Source: Methyloversatilis sp.
GTDB lineage: Bacteria > Pseudomonadota > Gammaproteobacteria > Burkholderiales > Rhodocyclaceae
Reading direction: 5' to 3'
DNA length: 33,711 nt
NCBI GenBank assembly: GCA_016791045.1
Contig: JAEUNO010000002.1
Span: forward strand, 1-33,711
The notes beneath the pieces were generated by a model. It was given only the letters and a program-made list of their open reading frames with translations. It did no database searches and was not told the origin of the DNA. Positions 26,440 to 31,234 of this stretch are shown piece by piece (the stretch's first letter is position 1; the number at the start of each line of letters is the position of its first letter). The position numbers and the translations under genes were made by a program.

Positions 26440-26456
26440 TGGCGGAGAGGGTGGGA
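26440..26456 (+). repeat. Left attachment site core (att)
   Basis: TGGCGGAGAGGGTGGGA is identical to 31218-31234. Read on the - strand it is the last 17 nucleotides of tRNA-Ser including CCA. The repeat is preceded by GATGTC here and, with two extra bases between, at the other copy. It marks the host junction away from the intact tRNA. Confidence 0.9.
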
Positions 26457-26519
26457 GAAGCCGCCATATTGACCTGAAACGCCGTATAGGCCGCTTTCAA
26501 AGGGTTTCCGGGCTGTGTG

Positions 26520-26543
26520 ATGTGGTGAAGGCATGTGGTGAAG
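26520..26543 (+). repeat. Left sub-terminal 24-bp repeat, putative integrase arm site
   Basis: This 24-bp sequence is built from the 13-mer ATGTGGTGAAGGC repeated in tandem. It is identical to 31133-31156 and in the same orientation. It starts 63 bases inside the left core repeat, whereas the other copy ends 61 bases inside the right core. Tyrosine integrases bind such arm sites flanking the core in attP, so this is my reading. Confidence 0.75.
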
Positions 26544-26585
26544 GCGTGCTAACGTAGTGTTCCGCAACCTGTCCGGACACACCTC

Positions 26586-27863
26586 TTGGCACACTACATC
26601 GAGAAGCGCAGAAACCTCTGGTACGCAACCCTCCACATTCCCGCCAAGCTTCGGGGACAACTCGGACGGGCGAAGTTCATCCAGTCGCTCCACACAGCGA
26701 ACAAGCGGGAGGCCGAAGACCTCGCACGGCCCCTCATTGCGGGCTGGAAGGCCCAGATACGGCAGGCAGGCGGGCAACCCAACGCGGTGTCGCAAGAGGC
26801 ACAGCGCTGGCGCGAGGCTATCCGATCCCTCCCCGATGGGGGCGATCAACAGGAGGCGGTAGAGGGTCTTCTAGCCGACCGCGCGCAGGGGCTGGAGGAC
26901 GCGGGCTTGCCTGAGGAGGAGGCCGTAATGTTTGCCCGTGTAGCACTGGGCGCGGTTACCCCCTCCCTTCCAATTTATGAGGACTGGTCCGCAGCCCTTG
27001 AGGGATCGGGACTTGGGCAGAAGAATATCGACCAGCAGCGTAAGGACGTGGCCCGGATGGTGCAGCAGTTCGCTACCGTGGAAGAGATCAGCCCGAAGGC
27101 CGTGAAGGACTGGATGAGGGAGCTTGCGGACGGTGGCACGACCCTAAGCAGCCGCAGACGCATCCTGTACTCATGCAGGGGCTTCTGGAAACGCGTCGCC
27201 CATGATGAACTAGCCAGCGCAGAGGCGCGGCCCTTCAACGTCCCCCCGAGCCCTCACGGATACGGCCCTAAGAAGGCCCGCAAGTCTGACCAGCGAGCTC
27301 CGTTTGAGTCTGCCGAAGTCGTGAGCCTTTGGCAGCAGGCCAAGACCAACGGGGACAGCAAGCTTGCCGACCTTATCGCACTGGGCGCTTACACAGGAGC
27401 GCGGATCGAGGAGCTATGTTCGATGAAGACCTCCGACGTGCGCGGACACACACTCCGCATCGAGGAGGCCAAGACGGAAGCGGGCTGTCGAGACGTGCCC
27501 ATCCACGCAGCTATTACCGCACTGGTGGAACGCCTCAAGAAGGGCTCCGATGACGGCTACCTCCTGTCGGGGCTGACCTTCAACAAATATGGTGACCGCT
27601 CGAATGCCATCGGGAAACGCTTCGGACGTATGAAGACGGCAATGGGGCTCCCCGCAACGAAGGTCTTTCACTCAATCCGCAAGACCGTCACCACACAGCT
27701 TGAGAACGCCGGGGTTCCCGTAGGTACCGCAGCGGACATCCTTGGGCATGAGAAGACCGACTTCACATACCGCGTGTATTCAGGGGGCACGACTCTTGAT
27801 GTAAAGGCGGAAGCACTGGCGAAGGTCTCCTATCCGTTTCCGGATGGCGGCGGGCTCACATGA
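26586..27863 (+). CDS. Tyrosine recombinase (phage-type integrase)
   Basis: This 425-residue site-specific integrase presumably inserts and excises the element at tRNA-Ser. An arm-binding-like N-terminus (YIEKRRNLWYATLHIPAKLRG) precedes a SAM-like core-binding domain (about residues 140-215) and the catalytic domain. Catalytic residues are visible: Arg in GAYTGARIEEL, Lys in IEEAKTEAG, HxxR in HSIRK, the second His in ILGHEKTDF, and the Tyr nucleophile in TYRVYSGG. The start is TTG at 26586, which gives the family-typical opening; no strong ribosome-binding site is seen. It lies 130 bases from the left core, between the left arm repeat and the resolvase. Confidence 0.93.
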   Translation: MAHYIEKRRNLWYATLHIPAKLRGQLGRAKFIQSLHTANKREAEDLARPLIAGWKAQIRQAGGQPNAVSQEAQRWREAIRSLPDGGDQQEAVEGLLADRAQGLEDAGLPEEEAVMFARVALGAVTPSLPIYEDWSAALEGSGLGQKNIDQQRKDVARMVQQFATVEEISPKAVKDWMRELADGGTTLSSRRRILYSCRGFWKRVAHDELASAEARPFNVPPSPHGYGPKKARKSDQRAPFESAEVVSLWQQAKTNGDSKLADLIALGAYTGARIEELCSMKTSDVRGHTLRIEEAKTEAGCRDVPIHAAITALVERLKKGSDDGYLLSGLTFNKYGDRSNAIGKRFGRMKTAMGLPATKVFHSIRKTVTTQLENAGVPVGTAADILGHEKTDFTYRVYSGGTTLDVKAEALAKVSYPFPDGGGLT

Positions 27864-28206
27864 TGCTAATCTCATGGCTGACGATGCCAAGGGGCTAGCA
27901 TGGAAAACGCCGAGAAGGGGCCGAGCGCGGGGAAAATTTCCCGGAGTTTTCCGAAGGCCCTATCCCCTCCCCTCGCCCTACGCGGTTCCCCCTCACGGGC
28001 ACCACTTCCCGGCCCCATCCCGGCATCTACCCAGTACCGGCCCACATGCGCCCCGCTTGGGCCCCGGAAGCATCGTCTGCGACTTCCTTAAGCGGACTGG
28101 CGAGGCATTAGGGCCCGCTGGGCATGTGTCAGGCTGGGCTACACCCTAACCCTGTGTCAGGCAGGCCCCCTGTAGAGTGTCAATATAGGGCCTATTTGTG
28201 TATTAC
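27864..28206. other. Non-coding stretch with repeated TGTGTCAGGC, possible res site
   Basis: This gap between integrase and resolvase holds no convincing gene; a 101-codon open frame here is proline-rich and lacks a ribosome-binding site. Near its right end TGTGTCAGGC occurs at 28125-28134 and again at 28153-28162, and the palindrome ATAGGGCCTAT lies at 28185-28195. Resolvases commonly bind repeated subsites just upstream of their own gene, so this is a candidate res site or operator. Confidence 0.4.
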
Positions 28207-28235
28207 TTGACATCCGGCACGGAAGGTCTTAGAGT
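28207..28235 (+). promoter_or_regulatory. Sigma-70-type promoter for the resolvase gene
   Basis: A perfect -35 TTGACA (28207-28212) and a -10-like TAGAGT (28230-28235) are separated by 17 bases, leaving a leader of about 30 bases before the resolvase ATG at 28273. The upstream repeats would allow autoregulation. Confidence 0.65.
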
Positions 28236-28272
28236 CCATCCTGACACTTTCGTCGGACAAAGGGGGCGCACC

Positions 28273-28875
28273 ATGACCACCACTACCAAGACCATCGCAG
28301 GGCAGCGCATCGGGTACCGGCGCGTCTCCACCCTCGACCAGAGCACAGACCGCCAGCTTGACGGCCTGCCCTTGGATACCGTGTTCGAGGACAAGGCCAG
28401 CGGGAAGGATGCCAAGCGCCCACAGCTTCAGGCGGCACTCAAGCATGCCCGGGCGGGGGATGTGTTCATCTGCCACAGCATGGACAGGCTGGCCCGCAAC
28501 CTTGACGATCTGCGGCGCATCGTGGATGACCTGACCGGGCGGGGTGTCGCTGTCCAGTTCGTGAAGGAGGGGATGAACTTCACAGGGAAGAATGACCCTA
28601 TGGCGCGCCTCATGCTGTCTGTCATGGGCGCCTTCGCGGAGTTCGAGCGGGAACTGATCCGGGAGCGCCAGCGGGAGGGCATCACACTAGCCAAAGCGAA
28701 GGGCGTCTATAAGGGCCGCAAGCCTGCCCTTACTGGGGAGCGCCTAGAGGCCCTACGCGCGCGCCTGAGCGGCCCCAAAAGGGTCAATATGTCCGCCTTG
28801 GCGCAGGAGTTCGGCGTGAGCCGGGAGACGATCTACCAGTACAAGCGGGGGCTGACCCATGAGGGGCAGGCGTGA
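28273..28875 (+). CDS. Serine recombinase, resolvase/invertase family
   Basis: This 200-residue small serine recombinase has the catalytic Ser in IGYRRVSTLDQSTDRQL, the conserved CHSMDRLARNLDDLRRIVDDL, the long E-helix MSVMGAFAEFERELIRERQREGI, and a C-terminal helix-turn-helix MSALAQEFGVSRETIYQYKRG. It could resolve multimers of the excised circular element or act as an invertase. I found no paired inversion sites, so resolvase is preferred. ATG 28273 follows a G-rich ribosome-binding site (AGGGGGCG); the frame stays open upstream but lacks family sequence. In a very small element, two different recombinases are notable. Confidence 0.92.
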   Translation: MTTTTKTIAGQRIGYRRVSTLDQSTDRQLDGLPLDTVFEDKASGKDAKRPQLQAALKHARAGDVFICHSMDRLARNLDDLRRIVDDLTGRGVAVQFVKEGMNFTGKNDPMARLMLSVMGAFAEFERELIRERQREGITLAKAKGVYKGRKPALTGERLEALRARLSGPKRVNMSALAQEFGVSRETIYQYKRGLTHEGQA

Positions 28876-30509: not shown

Positions 30510-30606
30510 CGCAGGAAGCCAGACACACCACGGCACCACCCCGCACCCTTGGGCACATGCGCCCGAGTGGTGCCCCTTCACGAACACAGCAAGGAACCCC
30601 ACACTC

Positions 30607-31131
30607 ATGAACCAACACGAACAGACCACCACCAGCACCGACAGCGCCGCCCCCACGGGGGAGCCCGTCATCATCTACACGGACGGATCGTGCAGCGGTA
30701 ACCCCGGCCCCGGAGGATGGGGTGCTGTACTTCTGCGCGGCGACAGACGCCGTGAGATGTCAGACGGAGAACCCGCCACCACAGGTAACCGTATGGAGCT
30801 AATGGGCGCCATCGGGGCACTTGAGAGCCTCAAGCAGGCGCCCCTGCAAGTGACCGTCTTCACAGATTCCCAGTACGTCCAGAAGGGAATCACCGAATGG
30901 ATACACGGATGGAAGGACAACGGCTGGAAGACGGCCGCCCGCAAGCCGGTCAAGAATGAAGACCTGTGGCGGCGACTGGATGCGGCCATGGCGCTGCACA
31001 GCGTCGGATGGCGCTGGGTGAAGGGGCACGCGGGAAACGAACACAACGAGCGGGCCGACACGCTCGCCAAGGCGGCAACCCAGAAGATGCGCGATCAGGG
31101 GCACCGCGCGGGGCCTTTCGGGGCCGCCTGA
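30607..31131 (+). CDS. rnhA: Ribonuclease HI carried by the element
   Basis: This 174-residue RNase HI cleaves RNA in RNA-DNA hybrids. The full active-site set is visible: Asp in [18 protein letters not shown], Glu in [10 protein letters not shown], Asp in [12 protein letters not shown], and Asp in NERADTLAK, with the flexible-loop His in [10 protein letters not shown] basic hybrid-binding segment is present ([20 protein letters not shown]). An N-terminal Thr/Ser-rich extension of about 20 residues precedes the domain. The start at 30607 has AAGGAA upstream; the frame is open further back but without family similarity. It is the last gene before the right arm repeat. Cargo RNase HI suggests R-loop or RNA-primed replication biology. 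Confidence 0.93.
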
Positions 31132-31132
31132 C

Positions 31133-31156
31133 ATGTGGTGAAGGCATGTGGTGAAG
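31133..31156 (+). repeat. Right sub-terminal 24-bp repeat, putative integrase arm site
   Basis: This copy is identical to the one at 26520-26543 and in the same orientation, again made from tandem ATGTGGTGAAGGC-type units. It ends 61 bases before the right core repeat, and it begins two bases after the RNase HI stop. Confidence 0.75.
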
Positions 31157-31160
31157 CCAT

Positions 31161-31206
31161 AAACAACGAAGCCCGCAAGCCCTTGATTCAGAAGGGAAAT
31201 GCGGGC
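31161..31206 (-). terminator. Element-supplied terminator for tRNA-Ser
   Basis: On the - strand directly downstream of tRNA-Ser, GCCCGCA (31206-31200) pairs with TGCGGGC (31177-31171), with an inner stem CCCTT/AAGGG, and a T-rich TTCGTTGTTT follows. It lies inside the element and would replace the native terminator, now 4.8 kb away at 26402-26425. Confidence 0.65.
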
Positions 31207-31217
31207 CTAGATGTCAT

Positions 31218-31234
31218 TGGCGGAGAGGGTGGGA
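31218..31234 (+). repeat. Right attachment site core (att), overlapping the tRNA 3' end
   Basis: This is the second copy of TGGCGGAGAGGGTGGGA. It forms the 3'-terminal 17 nucleotides of the intact tRNA-Ser (CCA, discriminator, acceptor strand and part of the T-arm). Recombination within it leaves the tRNA functional. Confidence 0.9.

Follow-up and report, generated by a model that had tools for sequence, protein, structure and literature searches.

A 4.8-kb element in a tRNA-Ser(CGA) gene of Methyloversatilis and its possible kinship with podovirus satellites

A compact integrated element was studied in a 33,711-nucleotide stretch of Methyloversatilis sp. DNA, referred to as the window (NCBI GenBank assembly GCA_016791045.1, contig JAEUNO010000002.1, positions 1 to 33,711; the genus stands under Betaproteobacteria in the NCBI taxonomy). 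The element extends from position 26440 to 31234 and lies at the 3′ end of a tRNA-Ser(CGA) gene. Small tRNA-integrated elements as such are a known kind. The evidence leans toward this element being the smallest member found of a podovirus-satellite-like, tRNA-integrated family of 4.8 to 12.1 kb, a family that is apparently undescribed, and toward its being able to excise, be copied and probably travel with short-tailed phages. Between a stripped-down phage parasite and a plasmid, the former was considered more likely. A more specific form of this reading is put forward tentatively, as a possibility that we would not yet call probable: members of a new satellite family would leave the capsid and its packaging as they are and would equip a commandeered podovirus particle with ejection proteins of their own (gp13/gp14 type plus a third, long protein), and the 4.8-kb element would be the minimal, virion-gene-free form, consisting of an integrase, a resolvase with its res site, a ParB clamp and an RNase HI.

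Borders and gene content of the element

The borders were marked by a 17-bp exact direct repeat, TGGCGGAGAGGGTGGGA, at 26440-26456 and 31218-31234, with a unit of 4,778 bp between the repeat copies. This agreed with an earlier reading of the DNA from its letters (the sequence-only reading), which had described a 17-bp repeat of the tRNA 3′ end at both borders and a size of about 4.8 kb. In the window, the 17-mer was present twice on the + strand and was absent from the − strand. The integration target, the tRNA-Ser(CGA) gene (31218-31307, − strand; ARAGORN and Rfam RF00005), has the second copy as its 3′ end, and this copy represents the att core within the intact tRNA gene (31218-31234, + strand). 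The first copy is the distal att core (26440-26456, + strand), a copy of the tRNA 3′ end whose junction matches empty sites. An Rfam scan of the element detected no family other than tRNA, and two sub-threshold matches overlapped the tRNA.

Site status was examined in 13 genomes of the genus, the window's own included. The tRNA-Ser site was occupied in three (the window's own, G309 and G302), and three others had it exactly uninterrupted between long left and right flanks: G303 (C1:587363|587364), G307 (C4:78435|78436) and G308 (C52:54381|54382). In these three, the left flank (to 26439) directly abutted the right flank (from 31218), so that the empty tRNA-Ser site to which the sequence-only reading had pointed was found as an exact junction, and the 17-mer was present once in the junction stretch of G307. 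Four further genomes (G301, G304, G305 and G306) were consistent with an empty site, their left flanks being alignable in part only: the last 38 to 45 bases of the left flank aligned in G301, G304 and G306, at 0 to 2 bases from the tRNA flank, and the aligned left flank of G305 ended 90 bases short of the tRNA flank. The remaining three (G300, G310 and G311) were left unscored. Judged by its sequence, the element is a complete, compact, precisely bounded and intact integrative element at a tRNA 3′ end. The inverted repeat GCCCGCA/TGCGGGC at 31171-31206, which lies within the element beside the tRNA 3′ end, could replace a terminator-like hairpin, noted by eye, that the insertion would have displaced to approximately 26400-26430.

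From left to right, the element consists of an att core, 13-bp repeats, an integrase gene, approximately 0.4 kb with a res-like site, genes for a serine recombinase and a ParB-like protein, a noncoding block, a gene for an 89-amino-acid (aa) protein, an RNase HI gene, tandem repeats (from 31133) and an att core, and the genes are on the + strand. The integrase is a tyrosine recombinase of 425 aa with a TTG start (26586-27863) and Pfam matches to DUF6538 and Phage_integrase. The serine recombinase (28273-28875; 200 aa) is of the resolvase type (Pfam Resolvase, 5.2e-37, and HTH_7), with 68 to 70% DNA identity to listed plasmid resolvases and one of phage P1. The RNase HI (30607-31131; 174 aa) matched Pfam at 2e-48 and the NCBIfam RNase HI equivalog above its cutoff; a second RNase HI is located elsewhere in the genome (C31:97360-97776). 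Pfam families were thus found for the two recombinases and the RNase HI named in the sequence-only reading, and the ParB-like protein without ParA and the small protein without known family stood as well. No ParA was detected with Pfam among the five genes.

The ParB-like protein (29017-29898; 293 aa) matched phrog_1033 at 2.9e-6 and had no Pfam match at an E value of ≤1. An AlphaFold model made with seven aligned relatives had a pLDDT of 70.6. All 25 Foldseek matches to this model at an E value of ≤0.001 were Noc, ParB/Spo0J or KorB chains (best E, 1.5e-6; probability, 1.00), with low query-length TM-scores of 0.24 to 0.38, and a DGHHR motif was invariant in 7/7 aligned relatives. The predicted fold, a ParB N-terminal domain plus a helix-turn-helix (HTH), fits the ParB/Noc/KorB superfamily. 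The 89-aa protein (30240-30509) starts at an ATG at 30240, nine bases after an AAGGAG at 30225, and had no credible family in Pfam, PHROG or NCBIfam; its AlphaFold model was poor (pLDDT, 49), and it was matched in 2 of 199 family genomes, its own included.

Comparison with the sister element of G309 (Nei-Gojobori) gave omega values of 0.21 for the integrase, 0.16 for the serine recombinase, 0.23 for the ParB-like gene and 0.16 for the RNase HI, and these four genes are under purifying selection in this comparison. The serine recombinase, ParB-like protein and RNase HI shared 96 to 97% aa identity with those of G309, and the integrase shared 79.5%. This far greater divergence of the integrase indicated a probable exchange of modules. 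No replication initiator, relaxase, AlpA, capsid or terminase was recognised when the five proteins were scanned with Pfam, PHROG and NCBIfam and ten further small open reading frames were scanned with Pfam (no match at an E value of ≤0.1). Neither was a defence gene recognised with Pfam, PHROGs and NCBIfam, PADLOC not being used.

Two kinds of recombination sites could be proposed. Near the left border, a 13-bp unit, ATGTGGTGAAGGC, is present twice in tandem (26520 and 26533; 26520-26545, + strand), and near the right border it is found at 31133 and, for 11/13 bases, at 31146 (31133-31156, + strand). Short words near both ends were also present in G302 (CGTGTGGTGAA), G187 (CTGGGAACA) and G284 (TGTGGGTGACCG), with different letters in each; they lie approximately 60 to 105 bases inside each border and are doubled approximately 12 to 13 bases apart, on one side only in G302. 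No comparable doubled word was found near the ends of the G311 element. We infer from their sequence, examined without a chance control, that these repeats are candidate arm-type integrase sites. Upstream of the serine recombinase gene, a res-like site (28127-28250) contains TGTC half-sites at approximately 28127, 28155 and 28178 (+ strand) and inverted GACA half-sites at approximately 28208 and 28242, a clustered, inverted arrangement that we take to be the layout of a resolvase res site. A comparison covering the window, G309, G302, G187, G284 and G311 indicated that the 31- and 34-base spacings of the half-sites at approximately 28178, 28208 and 28242 were kept within a base in G309, G302, G187 and G284, most of these elements having further TGTC-type half-sites upstream. 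In G311, where the identity of the serine recombinase falls to 28%, this layout was not observed. The retention of the resolvase together with its own site supports multimer resolution of a circular form, and the multimer resolvase of the sequence-only reading gains from the conserved spacing upstream of the gene in five elements.

Related elements and their internal virion proteins

Bounded relatives were gathered by following the integrase, the ParB-like protein and gp14, and occurred at tRNA genes in Methyloversatilis and in other genera of its GTDB order. The window element (4.8 kb) was the smallest found among them; the others measured 12.1 kb (G302), 9.8 kb (G311), 7.7 kb (G187), 6.9 kb (G218) and 6.6 kb (G284), and the G309 element lies on two contigs that end in the same poly-G run. 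Each element could be assigned a tRNA except that of G218, where the 23-bp repeat is tRNA-end-like without an ARAGORN call. A tyrosine integrase and a serine recombinase were present in 7/7 elements (tblastn to the set), some matches being distant (25% over part of the integrase in G187 and G218; 28 and 31% for the recombinase in G311 and G218). The ParB-like gene was present in five of the seven (window, G309, G187, G284 and G218), as was RNase HI (window, G309, G302, G311 and G218). Tblastn of the set and a PHROG scan of two further proteins each revealed no recognisable virion gene in G284 or G218. The G218 element (L011:2888-9821), from another genus of the same family, contains a serine recombinase, RNase HI, a small protein, ParB and an integrase between its 23-bp repeats; the expectation that the same gene set would recur between repeats was therefore upheld for the integrase, serine recombinase, ParB and RNase HI together but not for their order. 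Two loci with ParB and a serine recombinase (L009 and L012, the latter giving only a 9-bp repeat), two genomes with integrase matches of 48% (G278) and 47% (G156) and the contig-cut G364 were not counted as bounded. A ParB profile search of 290 genomes of the order gave 14 matches, 6 of them close (E < 1e-100; window included, all previously collected) and 8 weaker.

The G302 element occupies the same tRNA-Ser(CGA) as that of the window and encodes relatives of its integrase (62% aa identity; omega, 0.13), serine recombinase (83 to 84% aa identity) and RNase HI. Its gene order is integrase, a 247-aa protein on the opposite strand, a 223-aa protein, resolvase, a SIR2-like protein, KilA-N, an AAA_25 ATPase related to phage helicase-primases and RNase HI, followed by a noncoding block, a weak gp13-like match (0.025), a 665-aa protein, gp14 and a gp13-like protein. 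The G311 element, in a tRNA-Leu, has the order integrase, serine recombinase, KilA-N, ATPase, RNase HI (63% identical to that of the window), a relative of the 89-aa protein, a 66-aa protein, a 577-aa protein related to the 665-aa one of G302, gp14 and a gp13-like protein. The G187 element, in a tRNA-Ser(GCT), encodes an integrase, a weak HNH-like protein, ParB, gp14 and a resolvase (63% identity). Through two of these arrangements, the window element is connected with the elements that carry virion proteins. The 89-aa gene has a relative in G311 (L119:11866-12150; 39 to 43% identity) that heads the virion-protein module there. In addition, the same noncoding block separates RNase HI from the module in G302. 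In the window, this conserved block (30100-30239) contains a dyad, CTTCCATATGTGGAAG (30119), and a palindrome, CTTGCGCAAG (30174), and ends in the AAGGAG of the 89-aa gene; positions 30155-30230 aligned with the block that follows RNase HI in G302, and agreement with G311 was scattered only. The block is possibly an operator or a late control region.

T7-type gp14 proteins were detected in the G302, G311 and G187 elements and gp13-like proteins also in G302 and G311. The gp14 of G302 matched PF24072 at 2e-18, that of G187 matched it at 2.6e-21, and that of G311 matched phrog_805 at 1.9e-9 and was 62% identical to the G302 protein; all three were above the Pfam PF24072 cutoff. The gp13-like proteins matched at 6.6e-7 (G302; phrog_308) and 2.1e-7 (G311). 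The PHROG-scanned proteins of G302 (n = 9), G311 (n = 8) and G187 (n = 8) included none with a recognised head, portal, terminase or tail family, and their head/packaging matches below an E value of 0.1 were to internal virion families only; a chance-level connector match (E = 0.31) fell on the G311 ATPase. The suggestion that the element is perhaps a satellite was strengthened by these three bounded relatives.

A search for PF24072 in 249 family genomes gave matches in 10 at an E value of 0.001, 8 of them above the cutoff. Six of the ten gp14 loci (G330, G513, G543, G627, G514 and G548) lie amid large phage-like genes. A scan of the G330 prophage identified genes of the major head, protease, connector and tail kinds next to gp14; for the other five, the assignment was based solely on gene layout. 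A tree of ten gp14 sequences separated those of G302, G311, G187 and G364 (for which no border was found) from the six prophage-like sequences with branch support of 99/96; one of two G514 matches was used, the shorter being left out. The separation suggested that the element gp14 proteins are, in appearance, a lineage of their own and not fresh debris of local prophages. A full podovirus remnant was rejected for the relatives, given the separate gp14 group and the lack of a recognised shell family in the scanned proteins. The long 665/577-aa protein is without a family; the 577-aa query matched only G302 and G311 among the 13 genus genomes, and the 665-aa protein had no match in 399 genomes of the order in a search without a positive control.

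Several side observations concern the cargo and neighborhoods of these elements. The integrase-resolvase interval holds different proteins in G309 (221 aa, a putative membrane protein) and G302 (223 aa). The SIR2-like protein of G302 (L076:8201-9265; PF13289, 1e-7), between the resolvase and KilA-N, is possibly a defence gene in a cargo slot. Beside the G218 element, a second integrase-like gene was noted by eye at 9975-11114. In L009, L010 and L011, a protein of 72 to 118 aa with the motif VFRQ(I/V)AFPVS(A/T)FD(Y/W)LK precedes and overlaps the ParB-like frame; the two that were scanned had no Pfam or PHROG family, and the protein was not seen in the window. In G263 (L012:4428-10140), a 522-aa large serine-recombinase-like protein occurs with a resolvase and ParB, and one host gene is apparently split (by eye); pairs of ParB and resolvase may travel with other integration systems.

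Proposed life cycle and alternative explanations

Under the favored reading, the integrase would excise the element as a circle. Enzymes of the host or of a helper would replicate this circle in the ParB-type members, and in G302 and G311 the helicase-like ATPase encoded by the element itself would take part in the copying. RNase HI would remove RNA from DNA during copying, and the resolvase and res would convert multimers back to unit circles. The ParB-like protein, lacking ParA, could act as a KorB/Noc-like DNA-sliding clamp in regulation or segregation. Judging from the relatives, the family would travel in a satellite manner, with short-tailed phages whose ejection proteins are of the T7 type. 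The larger members might place their own gp14/gp13-type proteins in the borrowed virion or disturb the ejection of a competing phage from within the cell, and the window member would borrow the whole particle.

A number of results weigh against this proposal. Phage-derived functions without a full virion set were found in the relatives G302, G311 and G187 (proteins scanned), and the window element itself has no recognised virion gene; nor was an AlpA-like, primase or packaging gene recognised in it. PF24072 and the 577-aa protein were not found in the window's genome. The 89-aa gene was not found in G302, where the matching stretch was inspected by eye, and its omega against G309, calculated from 84 codons with few changes, was 0.63. 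Because no virion gene was recognised in G284 or G218, the members of the ParB branch could form a distinct kind of element that is not a satellite. The gp14 tree has only 10 rows, a midpoint root and one very long branch on the prophage-like side, and two of its rows, G514 and G548, fall short of the Pfam cutoff. Comparison of the 665/577-aa protein with five prophage proteins at the gp15 position gave an hhalign probability of 0.2% from thin alignments (2 and 5 rows). Viral contigs contained no relative of the integrase, ParB, gp14, 665-aa or 89-aa protein, and tblastn of phage records gave none for ParB, the 665-aa protein or gp14. A serine recombinase match was present in 24 viral contigs; when these were searched by tblastn for the rest of the protein set, the sole match was a weak one to the integrase, in L104.

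These results have to be weighed against three other explanations. A small integrative plasmid-like element would excise, replicate from an unrecognised origin and be kept by its resolvase and ParB, moving by chance through transformation, generalized transduction or mobilisation in trans, with no link to phages. A resolvase with res and a ParB are plasmid-style stability parts, the resolvase resembles the listed plasmid resolvases as described above, and G284 and G218 combine integrase, serine recombinase and ParB with no virion gene recognised in limited scans. We nevertheless consider this explanation rather unlikely: no replication initiator or relaxase was recognised, the relatives that occupy the same site or share the 89-aa gene carry internal virion proteins, and no plasmid record among the 5,000 with the best scores covered 80% of the element, a result that gave no support to the plasmid suggested in the sequence-only reading. 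The ten plasmid matches listed involved the recombinase gene only, and ParB was matched in one record, a Streptomyces plasmid, over 31% of the query at 37% identity.

The element could instead be a reduced derivative of a larger G302-like satellite that has lost its virion module, whether still mobile or just an immobile remnant. The integration site, integrase, res/serine recombinase family and conserved noncoding block are common to the window and G302, and the 89-aa gene, which heads the virion module in G311, is followed by no virion genes in the window. However, the att architecture is complete, the four genes compared with G309 are intact and under purifying selection, and the ParB module represents a replacement and not a loss, recurring in G187, G284 and G218; a reduced derivative therefore appears improbable. 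Least credible of all, and in our judgment very improbable, is an ordinary podovirus prophage remnant, with the gp13 and gp14 of the relatives having the same origin. These are phage virion proteins, but the elements that carry them are bounded by tRNA repeats, their gp14 reading frames are open and group apart from the six prophage-like ones, and the shell families recognised in the G330 prophage were not recognised in the scanned proteins of the three relatives. Among the relatives found, none had the window's genes within a full prophage.

The phage satellites known so far commandeer capsid size, packaging or tails. If the satellite reading is true, the existence of an ejection-protein lineage without the rest of a virion would make entry into the next cell a further step worth pirating, or one worth sabotaging in a rival phage. 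A member of 4.8 kb would put the minimum needs of such an element very low, and as a five-gene system it would open excision, resolution and copying to study gene by gene.

Some further features of the window were recorded. Upstream of the ParB-like gene, the eleven bases ACTCACTATAG (28920-28930, + strand), which resemble the core of a T7-type promoter, form a single weak site that is also present in G309 and had no counterpart in the retrieved G302 and G311 sequences; this site was not used as evidence. Beside it, at approximately 28935-28955, lies a palindrome, Fur-box-like as judged by eye. Tandem repeats with a period of approximately 107 bp, whose self-match is also inverted, occupy 33234-33711 near serS and are common to the window and G309.

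Comparison with known systems

A search of the open-licence PMC literature turned up no element of satellite size that lacks a shell and has a gp14 lineage of its own; an archaeal marine element that came up was unrelated. Tycheposons are tRNA-integrated elements of marine bacteria that have a tyrosine recombinase, and some are thought to be satellites; their hosts differ from that of the window element, and we know of no tycheposon with the set of resolvase/res, RNase HI and internal virion proteins. P4-like satellites have a large primase-helicase and a capsid-size gene, and no such family was detected in Pfam, PHROG and NCBIfam scans of the window proteins. With respect to conjugative or mobilisable elements, no relaxase was found in scans of the five proteins and ten small open reading frames, oriT not being searched for. 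A plasmid partition system consists of ParA, ParB and a centromere, and the window element has the ParB-like protein only.

The serine recombinase resembles the Tn3/P1-type resolvases in its Resolvase domain plus HTH and in the clustered inverted TGTC half-sites upstream; it differs in lying inside a tRNA-integrated element, with no transposon recognised around it. The relatives' gp14 proteins belong to the same family as those of T7-type phages (gp13/gp14; PF24072, phrog_308 and phrog_805), but no shell genes were recognised around them, and neither protein was recognised in the window element.

Among chromosomal islands, the PICI EcCIMP1, whose helper is Kapi1, is reported to have AlpA-family regulators and a primase, to excise and to be carried by a temperate phage (PMC11773190). 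The window element is likewise a chromosomal island; it has no recognised AlpA or primase, and its helper, unlike that of EcCIMP1, is hypothetical. Closest in spirit are the PICMI satellites of Vibrionaceae, which integrate next to fis and have AlpA as a regulator (PMC10803314). The likeness lies in the very small size, the few core genes and the lack of capsid-remodelling genes. An AlpA-type regulator, a PICMI and PICI feature, had no match in the 5 genes or 10 small open reading frames of the window element with Pfam. The target of the latter is the 3′ end of tRNA-Ser(CGA) and not a fis-adjacent site (fis itself was not searched for), and compared with the PICMIs, the window element has resolvase/res, ParB and RNase HI, to which its relatives add internal virion proteins.

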